Notes under the pieces: model-generated
The model's input: the letters and a program-made list of their open reading frames with translations, nothing else
What the model was told of the DNA's origin: nothing
Database searches by the model: none
Program-made: the position numbers and the translations under genes
Shown: in pieces, positions 7,107 to 32,814 of the stretch
How the letters are laid out: each line of letters begins with the position of its first letter
How positions within the stretch are numbered: position 1 is the first letter of the stretch
From: Gluconacetobacter sacchari
Lineage (GTDB): Bacteria; Pseudomonadota; Alphaproteobacteria; Acetobacterales; Acetobacteraceae
Length of the DNA stretch: 36,224 bases
Reading direction: 5' to 3'
Assembly: GCF_014174255.1 (NCBI RefSeq)
Contig: NZ_JABEQJ010000040.1
Coordinates: 1-36,224, forward strand

Positions 7107-7184
7107 GCCGGCCGCCGAAGGGGTCGGCAGACAGAACTATCAGTTTTGATCTTGTGTCCATGTTGCTCAAAGGAGGATATGGCT
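7107..7184 (+). promoter_or_regulatory. ROSE-type RNA thermometer in hsp20 leader
   Basis: Two hairpins can be drawn in the leader. The first pairs GCCGGCC (7107-7113) with GGTCGGC (7122-7128). The second pairs 7158-7168 (CCATGTTGCTC) with 7173-7182 (GAGGATATGG) around an AAAG loop, leaving one bulged G (7165) in TTGCT opposite the Shine-Dalgarno. That bulged-G TTGCT/AGGA pairing is the hallmark of ROSE elements. The helix covers most of the AGGAGG at 7171-7176 and an upstream ATG at 7179. Melting at heat-shock temperature would free the site for the start at 7185. Confidence 0.75.
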
Positions 7185-7667
7185 ATGAGAGCCACCGTTG
7201 ATTTTGCTCCCCTGTTCCGTTCGAGCGTGGGTTTTGACAGAATGCTCAATGCCCTTGATCTCGCCAGCCGGATTCCGACGGTCGATAACTGGCCGCCTTA
7301 CGATATCGTCAAGACCGGTGAGGATGATTACCGGATCGACATGGCGGTTGCCGGACTTGCCGAGAACGACCTTACGATCACACAGGAGCGCAATACTCTT
7401 GTCGTGACAGGACGAAAGGCGCCGGAGCCGCAAAGCGCCGCCGAATATCTCCATCGGGGTATTGCGGGCAGAGAATTCGAACGCCGCTTCGATCTGGCCG
7501 AGCATATGAAAGTCACCGATGCGCACTTCGAGAACGGACTTCTGTCCATTACCCTGAAACGTGAGATACCCGAAGCTATGAAGCCGCGTCGTATCGCGAT
7601 TACGTCCTCTACAACACGTGCGGAGGAAGCCGTGCCCCAGATCGAGGCGCGGAAAGAGGCAGCCTGA
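7185..7667 (+). CDS. Small heat shock protein, Hsp20/IbpA family
   Basis: A 160-residue alpha-crystallin-type holdase chaperone of the cytoplasm that binds unfolding proteins during heat stress. The N-terminal FAPLFRSSVGFDRM is typical of the bacterial class A (IbpA/HspA) group. The alpha-crystallin domain runs from about residue 38 (WPPYDIVKTGEDDYRIDMAVAG) to 138, with the conserved A-x-x-x-n-G-L motif as AHFENGLLSITLKRE. A short tail contains a PRRIAI sequence, the I-x-I type motif used in oligomer assembly. ATG 7185 is chosen over in-frame ATG 7179 because AGGAGG (7171-7176) is 8 bases from it but only 2 from 7179. Expression is probably controlled by RpoH and by the ROSE thermometer. A strong hairpin follows at 7683. 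Confidence 0.93.
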   Translation: MRATVDFAPLFRSSVGFDRMLNALDLASRIPTVDNWPPYDIVKTGEDDYRIDMAVAGLAENDLTITQERNTLVVTGRKAPEPQSAAEYLHRGIAGREFERRFDLAEHMKVTDAHFENGLLSITLKREIPEAMKPRRIAITSSTTRAEEAVPQIEARKEAA

Positions 7668-28548: not shown

Positions 28549-28956
28549 TCAGGGCGCAACGGCGTCCATTTCCGACGCCCGGATCAGCCGGCTCGGCCAG
28601 CCGATGCGGATCAGCAGGTCGTCGGGGCCATTGAGGGCGAATTCGTACATGCCCCATTCGGTATGGCGCGGTGCCTTCACCGGGCCGAGGATGGCGTCCC
28701 CCGCGGTTGCGGCGAGCCGGTCGACATGCGGGGTGGACAGATAGATGCCGAACGGGTTGCGCCCCGGCACCACCCATCCCGGCACGGCGGGCTGGAGGTG
28801 AATCGTCGCGCCGTCCTGGTCCGACAGGATACGGTAATCCGCCGTCCCGTCATCCGTCGGGCCGAAAAACCCGAGGCCGTTCCACCATCGCCCGGCCTGC
28901 TCCATGTCATTGCAGGGAATGATCGCGCAGGCGCGACAGTCGGCGGCCATGGTCAT
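28549..28956 (-). CDS. VOC-superfamily (glyoxalase/bleomycin-resistance-like) protein
   Basis: 135 residues, a single VOC domain: IPCNDMEQAGRWWNGLGF at the N-terminus, TADYRILSDQDGATIHLQPAV, FGIYLSTPHVDRLAA and WGMYEFALNGPDDLLIRIGWP at the C-terminus. Members are metal-dependent lyases, isomerases or drug-binding proteins; the reaction here is unknown. ATG 28956 overlaps the crcB stop (ATGA), so it is coupled to the fluoride channel gene. Confidence 0.85.
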   Translation of the reverse strand: MTMAADCRACAIIPCNDMEQAGRWWNGLGFFGPTDDGTADYRILSDQDGATIHLQPAVPGWVVPGRNPFGIYLSTPHVDRLAATAGDAILGPVKAPRHTEWGMYEFALNGPDDLLIRIGWPSRLIRASEMDAVAP

Positions 28957-29381
28957 GAGGACTTTCCCGCATCGGGTATGGGACGGGGAGGGGCGAGGGC
29001 CTGGGCGGCGAGGTAGCCGGCGGTCACGCCGGCCATGCCGAGCGTGACGGACAGGACGATATTCAGCAGCGCGCGCCCCGGCGCCCCGCCGCGCAGCAGG
29101 TCCAGCGTCTGGAGCATGAAGGAGGAAAAGGTCGTGTATCCCCCGCATATGCCGACCATGAACATCAGCCGGGCGGTATCCGATACCTGAAAGCGCCCGT
29201 TATCCAGCGTCAGCGTGCCGAAGAAGGCGATGGCGAACGAGCCGGAGATATTGATCAGGATCGTGCCCCACGGCAGGCTCTGGCTGATCCGCGCGGTCGC
29301 CAGACCGACCCAGTAGCGCATCAGGGTGCCGCAGGCACCGGCCAGGGCGATGCCCAGCGTGGTCGACAGGTTTGGGGTCAT
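28953..29381 (-). CDS. crcB: CrcB/Fluc fluoride channel
   Basis: 142 residues with four membrane segments. GACGTLMRYWVGL, the conserved GTILINISGSFAIAFFGT with the pore Asn, and GICGGYTTFSSFMLQTLDL with the TTFSTF-like motif are all present, and the length is normal for this dimeric channel. It exports fluoride and so protects cytoplasmic enzymes. ATG 29381 overlaps the universal stress protein stop (ATGA), and its own stop overlaps the VOC start. A fluoride riboswitch sits at the head of the same operon, which supports the function independently. Confidence 0.96.
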   Translation of the reverse strand: MTPNLSTTLGIALAGACGTLMRYWVGLATARISQSLPWGTILINISGSFAIAFFGTLTLDNGRFQVSDTARLMFMVGICGGYTTFSSFMLQTLDLLRGGAPGRALLNIVLSVTLGMAGVTAGYLAAQALAPPRPIPDAGKSS

Positions 29382-30238
29382 GCGGCAGGGTCTTCGATAC
29401 CATGGTGACAGGTCAGGATGGGCAGGGTGCCGTGCGCCAGCAGGTCGCGCGTCGGGCCGCCGAACAGCCATTCGACGAAACGCGCATGCGTATAGGCCCC
29501 CATGATCAGCAGGTCGCCCCCCGCCGCCAGCGCGCGGGCGCGGATCTCCTCGCCCAGCCGGCCGCGCGGCGCGCTGAAACGCGCGATCGTGACCGCGGCC
29601 CCGCGCGCCGTCAGCTCCCGGGCCCGTTCCGGGGGCGGCTGCTCCGCATCGTCGTCGGCACCGATCAGGAAGGTGACATGCCCGGCCGCGTCCAGCAGCG
29701 GCCCGGCGGCGGCCACGGCCCGATCGAGGGCGGGCGAGGGATGCCACGCGATGATCGGCCGCGCCCCCACGGTGGCACAGGAGTGTAGGGGGGCGATCAG
29801 GACCAGTGCCCGGGCATCGTACAGCGCCCCGGCCAGAGCCTGTTCGACATCCTCGCGCTCGCGCTCGTCGTCGGCGGCGCGCGGGCGGCTGACGACCACC
29901 AGATCGGCCATGGCGGCCTCCCGGGCCACGATTGCGCGCACATCGCCGGCCATCTCGGCCCAATGCGCGGTGGCCACCCCTTTCTCGCCGGCCGGCCCGA
30001 TCCAGGCCTGGGCCGACGCGCGCAGCCGTTCCGCGCGCAGGGCACCCCGCCGGGCGAAGGCCGCGCGCCGCGCCGGCGTGGGAATCCCCTCGTCGGGCGC
30101 CTGGAAAGCCGGGTCGGCCGCGCGTCGGGGATGCAGCAGCCGGATGTCCCGCGCAGGCAGCCGCCGGACAAGCTCGCCGACTGCCTGAAGCGTGAACAGG
30201 GCGGTCTCCGGCCGATCCAGAATGGCAAGGATGCGCAT
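29378..30238 (-). CDS. Universal stress protein (UspA family, tandem-type)
   Basis: 286 residues, about twice one Usp domain. The start MRILAILDRPETALFTLQA resembles the first strand of UspA; the C-terminal half ends GGDLLIMGAYTHARFVEWLFGGPTRDLLAHGTLPIL, the Usp ATP-binding-type signature in degenerate form. The middle also fits (ADLVVVSRP, IAWHPSPALDRAV). ATG 30238 has AGGGAGGGG about 5 bases upstream, just after the stop of a leader ORF. The stop overlaps the crcB start. Being first in a fluoride-controlled operon suggests a role in fluoride or acid stress; this is inference. Confidence 0.88.
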   Translation of the reverse strand: MRILAILDRPETALFTLQAVGELVRRLPARDIRLLHPRRAADPAFQAPDEGIPTPARRAAFARRGALRAERLRASAQAWIGPAGEKGVATAHWAEMAGDVRAIVAREAAMADLVVVSRPRAADDEREREDVEQALAGALYDARALVLIAPLHSCATVGARPIIAWHPSPALDRAVAAAGPLLDAAGHVTFLIGADDDAEQPPPERARELTARGAAVTIARFSAPRGRLGEEIRARALAAGGDLLIMGAYTHARFVEWLFGGPTRDLLAHGTLPILTCHHGIEDPAA

Positions 30239-30252
30239 CGCGGTCCCCTCCC

Positions 30253-30339
30253 TCAGCGTTGCCCGATCGGGGCGGCATGCACCCCAGGGCGACCGATGGC
30301 GCGAAACGCGGGTAATCTGCAAGGACGCAGGGGCGACAT
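30253..30339 (-). CDS. 28-residue leader ORF after fluoride riboswitch
   Basis: ATG 30339 is preceded by GGGAGGAATCCGTCC, a good Shine-Dalgarno with 9-base spacing. The ORF encodes MSPLRPCRLPAFRAIGRPGV and 8 more residues, ending TGA. The ribosome binding site of the universal stress gene begins directly after this stop, so translation could be coupled. Its Shine-Dalgarno is the one that pairs with the riboswitch 3' strand. No known peptide family; it may exist only as a translational switch. Confidence 0.45.
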   Translation of the reverse strand: MSPLRPCRLPAFRAIGRPGVHAAPIGQR

Positions 30340-30375
30340 GGACGGATTCCTCCCTTCATGCCCAGTTCGGGCCGG

Positions 30376-30445
30376 GTAGGAATCATCAGCCCCAAGGCCG
30401 GGGCGGTTCGACCCGGGGCGGGTCAGGCAGAAATCCATTGCCTGA
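30376..30445 (-). promoter_or_regulatory. Fluoride riboswitch (crcB motif)
   Basis: On the minus strand, stem P1 is TCAGGCA/TGCCTGA with loop ATGGATTTC (30423-30445). It is followed by GACCCGCCCC and a second stem GCCCC/GGGGC, then GGCTGATGATTCCTAC (30376-30391), which differs by one base from the crcB-motif consensus GGCUGAUGAUGCCUAC. That base change (G to T) is matched by loop GGA in place of the usual GGC, so the pseudoknot becomes GGA/TCC: a compensated change that supports the fold. The 3' strand can instead pair with the downstream Shine-Dalgarno (30345-30354), giving a plausible translational off state. Downstream are the universal stress protein and crcB genes. Confidence 0.88.
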
Positions 30446-30449
30446 TCCG

Positions 30450-30478
30450 ATCAGGGCACGGGGCCGGCCGCCTGTCAA
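30450..30478 (-). promoter_or_regulatory. Putative sigma-70 promoter of riboswitch transcript
   Basis: TTGACA (minus strand, 30473-30478) is a perfect -35 element. The -10 region 17 bases on (CCTGAT) is weak. The predicted start near 30446 falls at the first base of riboswitch stem P1, as expected. Confidence 0.45.
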
Positions 30479-30498
30479 GCCGGCCGCCCATGCGGGCG

Positions 30499-32814
30499 TC
30501 AGAAACGCTGGTCGATGCCGGTCAGGATGGTCCGGCGCAACCCGTATTGCGGCGCGCCGACGCCGATGCCGGTGCCGCTGCGCAATTCGTAGCGCTTGTC
30601 GAACAGGTTGATCACGTCCAGCCGCAACTGGGTACGCTTCAGGAACGGGATATGGAACAGGTCCCTGAACGACTGCACGGCGGAGAGGTTGAAGGTCTCG
30701 TATTGCGGGACGACGCCGCCATTGGGAATGTCGCTGTCCTGGCGCAGGCCGCTGCCATAGACCATGGTCGCCGACAGGCGCAGCGGGTGGCCGGTGCGGT
30801 AGAACGCCGTGTAGCTGGCGCCCGCCGACGCCGTCCAGCGCTGGTCGTGGTCCAGGTGGATCCATCGGTGCTGGATATAGGCCAGGTCGTCCGGATCGAA
30901 ATTCCACTGGGCCGTGGTGATGTCCTTGCCGATCGCGCGCGACCACGCGAAATTGCCGTAGACGGAGAAAGGACCGCGCGTGTAGTCGGTGGCGAATTCA
31001 TAGCCATGCACCTGGCCGCGCCGATAATTGAAGGCGGACAGGATGATCGGCGAGCCGAACTGCCCTTCGTCGATCAGGTTCTTGGCCAGTTTCACATAGG
31101 CGTCGACCGACGCATGCCAGCCGGGCAGGATTTCCTGGGCGAAGCCGGCATCGAAATAATGATCGCGTTCCGCCTTGACGGTGGTGTCCTGCAACGTGCC
31201 CGGCGCGGCCGACGTATTGGCGAATTTGTTCAGCGACGTGCCGCCCACCAGTTCGAACGGCGGCGGGGTGTAATAGCGCGAATAGCCGGCATGGAACGTG
31301 CCGCCATGCCAGGGCTGGTAGACGATGTTGATCCGGGGGCTGACCTGCTTGGAATGGGTATATTCGTCCACCCCGTCGAAACGCAGCCCGTAATTGATGG
31401 TCAGGTTGCGGATCGGCTGCCATTCGTCCTGGGCATAGAGGCCGTAGAGCCAGCCGGTCCGCCCGTTGCCGTCATGGATCGAGATCGTCCGGTCGTCATA
31501 GATCGCGTTGCCGTCGTCATCGGTCCCGGTCTGCGGATAGACGGTCGAATCCGTCTTGGACACGACGCGCTCGACATAGACCTGGTAGCCGAAGCGGACC
31601 GTGTGATGGGGGTTGGCATGCCAGGTGACGTCGGTCTGCGAGCCGGACGAGAAGACGGATCGCTGGGCGCGCTGGGCATTGCCGTTATAGACGAGGTCGC
31701 CCAGCATGTCCGGCGAATAGCCCAGCGAACTGTAGCGGACCACGGCCGAACTTTGCAGGCTGATCGTGCCGATGTCCTTCTGGAGGGACAGGATGCCGAA
31801 ATCGGTGATTTCCTTCTGGCGCTCGTTCAGGCTGGCGCTGTCGACGCTGCCATAGAGATTTTGCGACAGCGCGCTGCCCAGGAAGGACGGGTTGGCAAAC
31901 TGCCTCTGCTGTCCGGGATTGTTCGGCAACTGGTATTCGGCGTTCGACACGCCGGCCGTCAGGCTGATACGCGTGTTCTCGTCGGCGGTGTAGCGCAGAT
32001 GGCCGAGGAAATGGTACTGGTTCGTCAGGTCGTGCAGGGCATTGAAATCCGGCGTCGGATTCTCGATCCCGACCCGGTCATGCACGAAATCGGCGGTCGC
32101 GAAATAATCCCATTTTCCCGCATGGCCGCCATATTGCAGGGACGGGAAGAAATAATCGCGCGCGCCGCCATAGATCGACACGTCGCCGCCCGGATCGGCG
32201 CTGCCGGTCTTGGTCGTGATGTCGATGACGCCGGCTTGCAGGAAGCCATATTCGCTGGGCAGCGCGCCGGTCGTCAGCGACATCGAATGGGCGAAGCGCG
32301 TCATCAGCGCCTGGCCGAAGACATTCATGCCCTCCGGCAGTTCGACGCCGTCCAGGCGGAACTGCACCTCGTTATGGTCGCCGCGGATATGGATCTGGCC
32401 ATAGCTGTCCTGTGCGACGCCGGGGGCCTGCAACAGCACGGAATTCAGCGGGGCGTTGTCGCCGCCGGGGATGGTTTCGAGGTCGCGCCGCGTGAAACGA
32501 TAGATGGTGGCGCCGGTCGCGGGCTGAAGCGTCGCGCGCATCAGGTCGAGATGCGCGTTGACCACGATATGTTCCTCATTGGCGGCGGTCGCCTCCACGC
32601 TGCCATCGGGCAGGACGCGGTCGGTGGCGGCCGTCGTGCTGAAACTCGTCCGCGACGCGGCGGCCTGTGGCGTGTCTCCGTCCGTCGTCGGGCCCGACGC
32701 CTTGGCCGGCGGGGACTGGTCGGTCGTCGCCGCGCGCACGGCCTGCGGAAGGGCGAATGCGGTTCCCGCAAGCAGAATGGCGGTCATGCGTAGCGCAGGT
32801 CGAGGCGAACTCAT
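30499..32814 (-). CDS. TonB-dependent outer-membrane receptor
   Basis: 771 residues. A signal peptide (MTAILLAGTAFALPQAVRAA) is followed by a TonB-box-like EEHIVVNA near residue 80. The plug domain (TGATIYRFTRRDLETIPGGDN, APGVAQDSYGQIHIRGDHNEVQFRLDGVELPEG) precedes a long beta-barrel ending RRTILTGIDQRF, with the terminal aromatic residue required for outer-membrane insertion. INLFDKRYELRSGTGIGVGAPQYG is the usual C-terminal motif. No STN extension is present. The ligand is unknown; the plug is closer to carboxypeptidase-regulated/sucrose-type transporters than to classical siderophore receptors, but I am not sure. ATG 32814 has CAGGA about 8 bases upstream. Confidence 0.92.
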   Translation of the reverse strand: MSSPRPALRMTAILLAGTAFALPQAVRAATTDQSPPAKASGPTTDGDTPQAAASRTSFSTTAATDRVLPDGSVEATAANEEHIVVNAHLDLMRATLQPATGATIYRFTRRDLETIPGGDNAPLNSVLLQAPGVAQDSYGQIHIRGDHNEVQFRLDGVELPEGMNVFGQALMTRFAHSMSLTTGALPSEYGFLQAGVIDITTKTGSADPGGDVSIYGGARDYFFPSLQYGGHAGKWDYFATADFVHDRVGIENPTPDFNALHDLTNQYHFLGHLRYTADENTRISLTAGVSNAEYQLPNNPGQQRQFANPSFLGSALSQNLYGSVDSASLNERQKEITDFGILSLQKDIGTISLQSSAVVRYSSLGYSPDMLGDLVYNGNAQRAQRSVFSSGSQTDVTWHANPHHTVRFGYQVYVERVVSKTDSTVYPQTGTDDDGNAIYDDRTISIHDGNGRTGWLYGLYAQDEWQPIRNLTINYGLRFDGVDEYTHSKQVSPRINIVYQPWHGGTFHAGYSRYYTPPPFELVGGTSLNKFANTSAAPGTLQDTTVKAERDHYFDAGFAQEILPGWHASVDAYVKLAKNLIDEGQFGSPIILSAFNYRRGQVHGYEFATDYTRGPFSVYGNFAWSRAIGKDITTAQWNFDPDDLAYIQHRWIHLDHDQRWTASAGASYTAFYRTGHPLRLSATMVYGSGLRQDSDIPNGGVVPQYETFNLSAVQSFRDLFHIPFLKRTQLRLDVINLFDKRYELRSGTGIGVGAPQYGLRRTILTGIDQRF

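Follow-up and report, generated by a model that had tools for sequence, protein, structure and literature searches.

We analyzed a 36,224-nucleotide stretch of Gluconacetobacter sacchari DNA (contig NZ_JABEQJ010000040.1, hereafter the window), in which a fluoride riboswitch aptamer, a putative leader reading frame, a universal stress protein gene (usp) and the fluoride exporter gene crcB follow one another on the minus strand. A sequence-only reading of this DNA had called a fluoride riboswitch here and had proposed a covariance search as a check. That search confirmed the call: cmscan matched the minus strand at 30451-30370 to RF01734 with 49.2 bits (E 7.1e-11, gathering score 34), and this was the sole match at E <= 0.001 within its own genome. 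Judged from its sequence, 30451-30370 (minus) is a genuine fluoride (crcB) aptamer ahead of a stress-protein and fluoride-exporter operon. The features of the locus are as follows.

30370 to 30451, minus strand: fluoride (crcB) aptamer, RF01734, from the cmscan match above.
30426 to 30442, minus strand: hairpin P1, GGCA/TGCC with loop AUGGAUUUC, placed by the cmscan alignment; its four pairs are present in 26/26 aligned copies.
30436-30434 (G8 G9 A10), 30433 (U11) and 30432 (U12), minus strand: bases of the P1 loop, placed by the cmscan alignment.
30410 to 30424, minus strand: insert hairpin P2, GACCC/GGGTC, between P1 and AACCG; covarying in the RNAalifold consensus of 26 copies.
30389 to 30404, minus strand: hairpin P3, GCCC/GGGC, from the cmscan structure; covarying.
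30374 to 30387, minus strand: 3' pseudoknot strand GATGATTCCTACCC, common to the ligand-bound and off states, with base 44 (U) at 30382.
30360 to 30372, minus strand: small hairpin GCCC/GGGC within the off-state helix, from the minimum-energy fold.
30341 to 30354, minus strand: off-state partner strand GGGAGGAATC-c-GTC, with the leader Shine-Dalgarno GGAGG; from pair probabilities and the RNAalifold consensus.
30253 to 30339, minus strand: putative 28-codon leader ORF MSPLRPCRLPAFRAIGRPGVHAAPIGQR, ATG 30339 to TGA 30253, its stop 14 nt before the usp start.
29378 to 30238, minus strand: usp, tandem universal stress protein of 286 aa, with its own Shine-Dalgarno-like GGGAGGGG after the leader stop.
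28953 to 29381, minus strand: crcB, fluoride exporter, its start overlapping the usp stop (ATGA); PF02537 at 2.2e-25, TIGR00494 at 84.8 bits against a cut-off of 80.45.

The window aptamer shares with the RF01734 family P1, P3, the AUGG loop, the AACCG junction, the UGAUGA..CCUAC 3' strand and a downstream crcB, which is here the third reading frame after the aptamer and overlaps usp. It differs from the family at pair 11:44, which is G-C in the consensus and U.U in the window, and in carrying the P2 insert. P2 is an optional element in the fluoride riboswitch family; in the single-sequence fold, part of the P2 stretch pairs instead with extensions of P1 and P3. The A40-U48 bases, whose role as a linchpin is described in the available part of PMC8752731, both lie in GAUGAUUCCUAC, where the placement of the numbers on the window sequence is our own. 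A consensus scan found no promoter, although by eye a TTGACA is seen at about 30481.

The sequence-only reading was also right about the downstream genes, a universal stress protein and crcB; the stress protein has a tandem Usp fold. Taken alone, the window usp protein fell under the PF00582 cut-off (0.0013, 19.7 against a cut-off of 24) and had no NCBIfam match. PF00582 was matched by 11/11 members of alignment A2 at E up to 0.01 (best 2.2e-10), and the top fold matches of the window protein's structure model (mean pLDDT 82) were 3loq and 3ab8, both tandem universal stress proteins. Universal stress protein is also the annotation of its relatives in Gluconobacter oxydans, G. thailandicus and Kozakia, and the gene is carried by plasmids of Kozakia baliensis and Acetobacter ascendens. 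A usp orthologue (E<1e-80) was present in 10/14 genomes of the genus, and 10/10 of these have the riboswitch somewhere in the genome. The three genus genomes without a riboswitch match are also without a usp orthologue (one of them, G013, is only 87% complete), while G011 has the riboswitch and no usp orthologue. In G004 and G012 (L010, L011, upstream of 1790) a usp orthologue is present with no aptamer found directly upstream, and a divergent canonical riboswitch adjoins it. We note that the protein encoded at 28552-28956 (minus), which overlaps the end of crcB, has no Pfam or NCBIfam match. Elsewhere in the window, a ROSE RNA thermometer (7108-7191, plus strand; 64.8 bits, cut-off 45) precedes an ORF (7146-7667 frame) that by eye resembles a small heat-shock protein.

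The pseudoknot between the P1 loop and the 3' strand had been described as compensated, the one unusual base of the 3' strand being matched by a change in the loop. This was half right. Measured against the reference strand of that reading, GATGATGCCTAC, C10-G45 has become A10-U45 and is compensated, while A11-U44 has become U11.U44 and is not. In the window the loop GGAUU meets the 3' strand AUUCC as G-C, G-C, A-U, U.U and U-A, so that the two strands lie at the positions expected for the family and their pairing is incomplete at 11:44. The reference GATGATGCCTAC is a real type, carried together with loop GGCAU by copies in other classes of the phylum; the Rfam consensus in the cmscan output has GAUGACUCCUAC as its 3' strand, with loop GGaGU.

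The mismatch at 11:44 recurs in relatives. With MAFFT we aligned 26 of the 44 distinct mismatch-type copies, namely those in which the linker is short and the partner clear; the window is among them. Pair 11:44 was standard in 0/26, being always U.U, C.U or C.C, and the other five pseudoknot pairs and P1 were invariant in 26/26. Base 44 was pairable with the ribosome-site strand in every one of the 26 (UA 12, UG 9, CG 5), and the triplets of base 11, base 44 and partner base were UUA in 8, CUG in 6, CCG in 5, CUA in 4 and UUG in 3. Base 44, the T in the window, thus matches the ribosome-site strand and has lost its match to the loop. A change on both sides is seen in just one off-helix pair, and column shuffles matched the observed pairing and covariation score in 42/500 cases, so that covariation at this helix is suggestive and by itself not strong. 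A tally of 11:44 over 156 hits, which includes overlapping-locus repeats and a few misparses, gave GC 101, UU 33, CU 10, CC 6, AU 4 and GU 2; the repeats and misparses (e.g. L060 minus) are also within the helix shuffle and held-out tests described below. Two accounts of the mismatch were set aside. That it offsets a C-G pair at pseudoknot position 1 was weakened when loops ending in C were found in 53/53 mismatch copies and also in 37/66 canonical 8-nt loops. A shifted pseudoknot register, reasoned through on the sequences, could pair the U11 members and not the C11 members.

We found that the mismatch travels with P2. Among 159 distinct strictly parsed cores (loci L001-L366), pair 11:44 was G-C in 106 and pyrimidine-pyrimidine in 53, and an insert of at least 10 nt between P1 and AACCG was present in 51/53 of the latter vs 1/106 of the former. 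The two exceptions among the mismatch cores, L025 and L173, are parse artefacts in which P2 is visible, and the canonical exception, L006, has an insert without a predicted fold. Since 7/53 mismatch cores came from a pattern that demanded an insert of at least 8 nt, the fair P2 count is 46/46, P2 being present in all Rfam-found mismatch copies, in 44 by rule and in two by eye. The pair tally, the helix shuffle and the held-out test cover loci with a good strict parse, which 32/174 did not give. A laxer parse resolved 13 of these 32: L169 and twelve others whose 11:44 is standard and whose insert measures 3-6 nt. In all it added L169 and L188 as mismatch copies, both U.U with P2. A further three (L076, L088, L108) are canonical by eye, and 16 loci remain unparsed. 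The family sample holds 40 genomes, drawn from the matches listed plus added loci, and its counts are therefore to be read as at least the numbers given; the core set is mostly the window's family plus a class sample and hence not an unbiased census.

Beyond the family, mismatch copies were found, among the matches listed, in Sphingomonas, Rhizobium sp. LC145, Lacunisphaera and an Opitutaceae genome, and also in f70 and f40, two more families of the class. A pattern scan of genome contigs, in itself too loose, gave among the matches listed at least eight in which a script found the 3' aptamer strand (L178, L182, L188, L189 twice, L211, L212, L287) and one, L233, in which it was seen by eye; a like pattern run on 385 class genomes matched in 84, mostly by chance. 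The converse rule, that P2 means mismatch, fails outside the class. Ten phylum copies combine a P2-like insert with a standard 11:44, namely L389, L402, L404-L407, L415, L416, L418 and L423, of which L404, L405 and L407 have inserts that fold weakly (-2.9). No pyrimidine-pyrimidine pair at 11:44 was found in about 48 credible parses of 50 phylum loci, in which L392 was misparsed, L411 doubtful, and G000, G102 and G676 not recounted, nor in three of the last ten loci (the other seven being unparsed). In these data the mismatch goes with P2, and P2 does not imply the mismatch. On this comparison of sequences, the window aptamer is a member of a structural subtype, defined by P2 and the mismatch together, that is also present in Sphingomonas, other Alphaproteobacteria and Opitutaceae. 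Among the titles and abstracts listed by the literature searches, in which most subscription papers were out of reach, none dealt with a subtype of this kind.

The survey of loci also yielded several separate observations. A further pseudoknot type combines loop AUGAUAUC with GAUAUC, and L353 has GGCUAUC/GAUACC with a possible bulge (L138, L140, L142, L146, L152, L353). Divergent fluoride riboswitch pairs, one facing each way and 113-177 nt apart, occur at L023/L030 (G008), L022/L028 (G035) and L007/L029 (G034). Among the matches listed, at least nine to twelve fluoride riboswitches per genome were counted in the same-family genomes G217, G130, G285 and G254. Beside the L006 riboswitch, just after 1570 on the plus strand, about fifteen head-to-tail 7-base GTAATGC units are seen by eye.

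The alternative pairing of the 3' strand lies exactly where the sequence-only reading had placed it, with GATTCCTACCC (30384-30374) joined to GGGAGGAATC (30354-30345) by ten pairs and one bulged A. All ten pairs are present in the minimum-energy fold of the leader, extended by GAU/GUC across a bulged C; in the fold model these pairs (30354-30345) have probabilities of 0.56-0.99, with the leader GGAGG unpaired at 5%. On the window sequence alone the helix is not significant. It has a computed energy of -15.5 kcal/mol, which 7% of 200 shuffles of the downstream 110 nt equalled, and whole-leader folds gave z scores of -0.80 and -1.72, likewise not significant. Its support comes from relatives. 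The helix reached p <= 0.05 in shuffles of 33/44 distinct mismatch-type copies (mean z -2.35) and 57/96 canonical-type rows (mean z -2.26). In the MAFFT alignment of 26 mismatch-type copies, 93.5% of off-helix cells were paired vs 37-64% when the strands were slid, and RNAalifold recovered 11/13 off-helix pairs unprompted. In a held-out test, only bases 42-48 served as anchor, and the pairing of bases 49-54 was compared with permutations. The 97 canonical-type copies showed 3.69 of 6 pairs vs 3.23 permuted, a value reached in 0/2000 permutations, and those with a good anchor gave 0/2000 both as 67 copies and when collapsed to 41. For the mismatch type the corresponding results were 9/2000 (44 copies), 4/2000 (40 with a good anchor) and 680/2000 (collapsed to 12). 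Taken together, the shuffle and held-out results indicated that the alternative helix extends throughout the family, with good support in canonical copies and moderate support in the mismatch subtype. An aptamer strand complementary to the Shine-Dalgarno is thus conserved in relatives, more weakly for the mismatch type after collapsing.

The suggestion that the T had been gained to extend this helix was not borne out. Canonical copies have a C44-G pair at the same place (83/96 rows, a count from a program that seeks pairing), and C44-G computes as the stronger pair. Bare-strand energies were -13.3 kcal/mol for U44 with partner A, -9.4 kcal/mol for C44 with partner A and -15.6 kcal/mol for C44 with partner G. 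The T is needed because the partner is A; compared with the canonical pairing, it makes the helix neither longer nor stronger.

The 28-codon leader ORF that had been described is present, from ATG 30339 to TGA 30253. Its coupling to usp fared less evenly. The stop lies 10-14 nt before usp in 6/8 of the distinct usp-linked leaders of the genus (L001, L013-L017, L019, L023), while in one, L014 (G001), the leader runs in frame into usp, and in another, L023 (G008), there is no ATG right after the masked site. The six have their ATG just after the masked site and span 28 (L001), 29 (L013 and L015), 33 (L016 and L017) and 30 codons (L019). Five of these six were tested, with 4 different lengths and 2 frames among them; in shuffled bodies a stop between -16 and -8 arose with a probability of 0.026-0.040 for each, and these probabilities do not multiply, since the copies are related. 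Outside the genus, the ORFs of the usp-linked mismatch copy L133 end at -27 or -2, and there is no stop at the leader-stop place. The distance from GGAGG to the leader ATG is 9 nt in the window, a spacing that is not kept across all relatives; in many more distant ones the ATG lies about 15 nt from the masked GGAGG or is missing, which indicates that the strand can be kept for pairing alone. Within the genus, the spacing and the ORF fit a coupling of leader and usp translation.

We consider it likely that the locus is a fluoride riboswitch of the P2-bearing subtype with a translational expression platform, which would mask the Shine-Dalgarno of a leader coupled to usp and then to crcB. Without fluoride, the 3' strand GAUGAUUCCUaCCC would pair with GGGAGGAAUCcGUC and hide the ribosome binding site of the leader ORF in the cell. 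With fluoride, the aptamer pseudoknot would retain the 3' strand, leaving the site free. The switch thus probably turns translation on with fluoride, a direction that we infer from the known class. Ribosomes finishing the leader would terminate 14 nt upstream of the usp start, where they may reinitiate, and after usp they could pass to crcB through the ATGA overlap. When the 3' strand was made unavailable in the fold model, which has no pseudoknot, the unpaired share of the leader GGAGG rose from 5% to 22%, i.e. it was still 78% paired, while openness of the leader AUG went from 0.82 to 0.42 and that of the usp AUG from 0.11 to 0.32.

These model values bear on an alternative that we regard as unlikely, in which the aptamer and off helix are the same and the leader is not the target: masking of GGAGG would act on mRNA stability or on transcription (Rho access), with translation of usp starting from its own GGGAGGGG. 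Three observations would suit this alternative: in the model there is no opening of the leader AUG, the usp site is nearly equally accessible in the two states (0.34 and 0.36), and relatives whose ATG is about 15 nt away or missing keep the G-rich strand. Against it, the position of the leader stop is kept despite different lengths and frames, and in L014 (G001), L022 and L058, the last two behind canonical aptamers, the frame that begins at an ATG immediately downstream of the masked site continues into usp. A decayed switch, in which the mismatch subtype no longer responds to fluoride and the off helix is a leftover, would account for the one pseudoknot pair lost in every aligned member (0/26 pair), and we hold it to be very improbable: decay would not keep five pseudoknot pairs invariant in 26/26 copies and base 44 pairable in the off helix in 26/26, nor would the type recur in several alphaproteobacterial families and Opitutaceae. 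A transcriptional switch with the off helix as part of a terminator, as described for B. cereus and T. petrophila in the available part of PMC11077080 and hinted at by a hairpin plus T-run seen by eye downstream of some family and class copies (L002, L341, L344), was rejected as highly implausible here, as there is no T-run after the helix and no intrinsic terminator was found in 30200-30560 or between the aptamer and usp.

Translational control by masking of the leader site remains our preferred reading. The locus is an ordinary riboswitch, of which the off state had been soundly observed and the pseudoknot misread; what is worth following is the conserved pyrimidine mismatch with P2. The mismatch at 11:44 may mean that base 44 takes its identity from the off-state partner and not from the loop. 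We propose, tentatively and as a possibility we rate somewhat below even, that in P2-bearing fluoride aptamers of Alphaproteobacteria and Opitutaceae the conserved pyrimidine-pyrimidine pair at pseudoknot position 3 is a weak point that permits strand exchange and for which P2 compensates, and that the off-state helix, not the ligand-bound fold, dictates base 44. If true, it would add a second natural solution to a switching problem for which, in B. cereus, a position-1 wobble was found essential. It would suggest that an off state can hold in place a change inside a ligand-binding RNA, which an aptamer model alone would score as a defect. How strong a pseudoknot can be before the switch jams is an active question for this riboswitch in the available part of PMC11077080, and a natural subtype with one pseudoknot pair broken in every parsed copy and an extra hairpin provides ready-made test variants.

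Parts of this picture are in print. Covariation of the full riboswitch and translational members are covered in the available part of PMC13273304, and strand exchange in the portion of PMC11077080 at hand, which also reports the position-1 wobble of the pseudoknot as critical and keeps its variants within the natural Rfam pattern. The word 'mismatch' is absent from the text of PMC11077080 and appears once in that of PMC13273304, on terminator stems. The translational fluoride riboswitches of P. syringae and B. pseudomallei (PMC13273304, in part) resemble the window in having no intrinsic terminator and in that regulation is expected at translation; the window differs in that its masked site precedes a short leader ORF ahead of usp. 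The transcriptional switches of B. cereus and T. petrophila (available parts of PMC11077080 and PMC8752731) likewise exchange the 3' strand of the pseudoknot into a downstream helix, but have a six-base-pair pseudoknot with a critical position-1 wobble, whereas the window is without a terminator.

With respect to gene content, the fluoride operon of Enterobacter cloacae FRM, ppaC-uspA-eno-gpmA-crcB-orf5249, also places uspA and crcB under one fluoride riboswitch, and its uspA transcript is raised 120-fold by fluoride, according to the available part of PMC5533749; it differs from the window in its gene set and in that the stress gene is not first. In G. oxydans 621H, an RF01734 leader before crcB has read coverage similar to that of the ORF and is without a mapped start (PMC5756330, in part). 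In Gluconobacter and Kozakia the usp/crcB fluoride block is plasmid-borne (NC_006672.1, NZ_CP014675.1), and the plasmids are typed conjugative and mobilizable. On Gluconobacter oxydans pGOX1 and Kozakia baliensis pKB14400_1, as in the window, an orthologous universal stress protein gene stands beside crcB, but there the two genes diverge, and each of them in Kozakia faces a canonical-type riboswitch.
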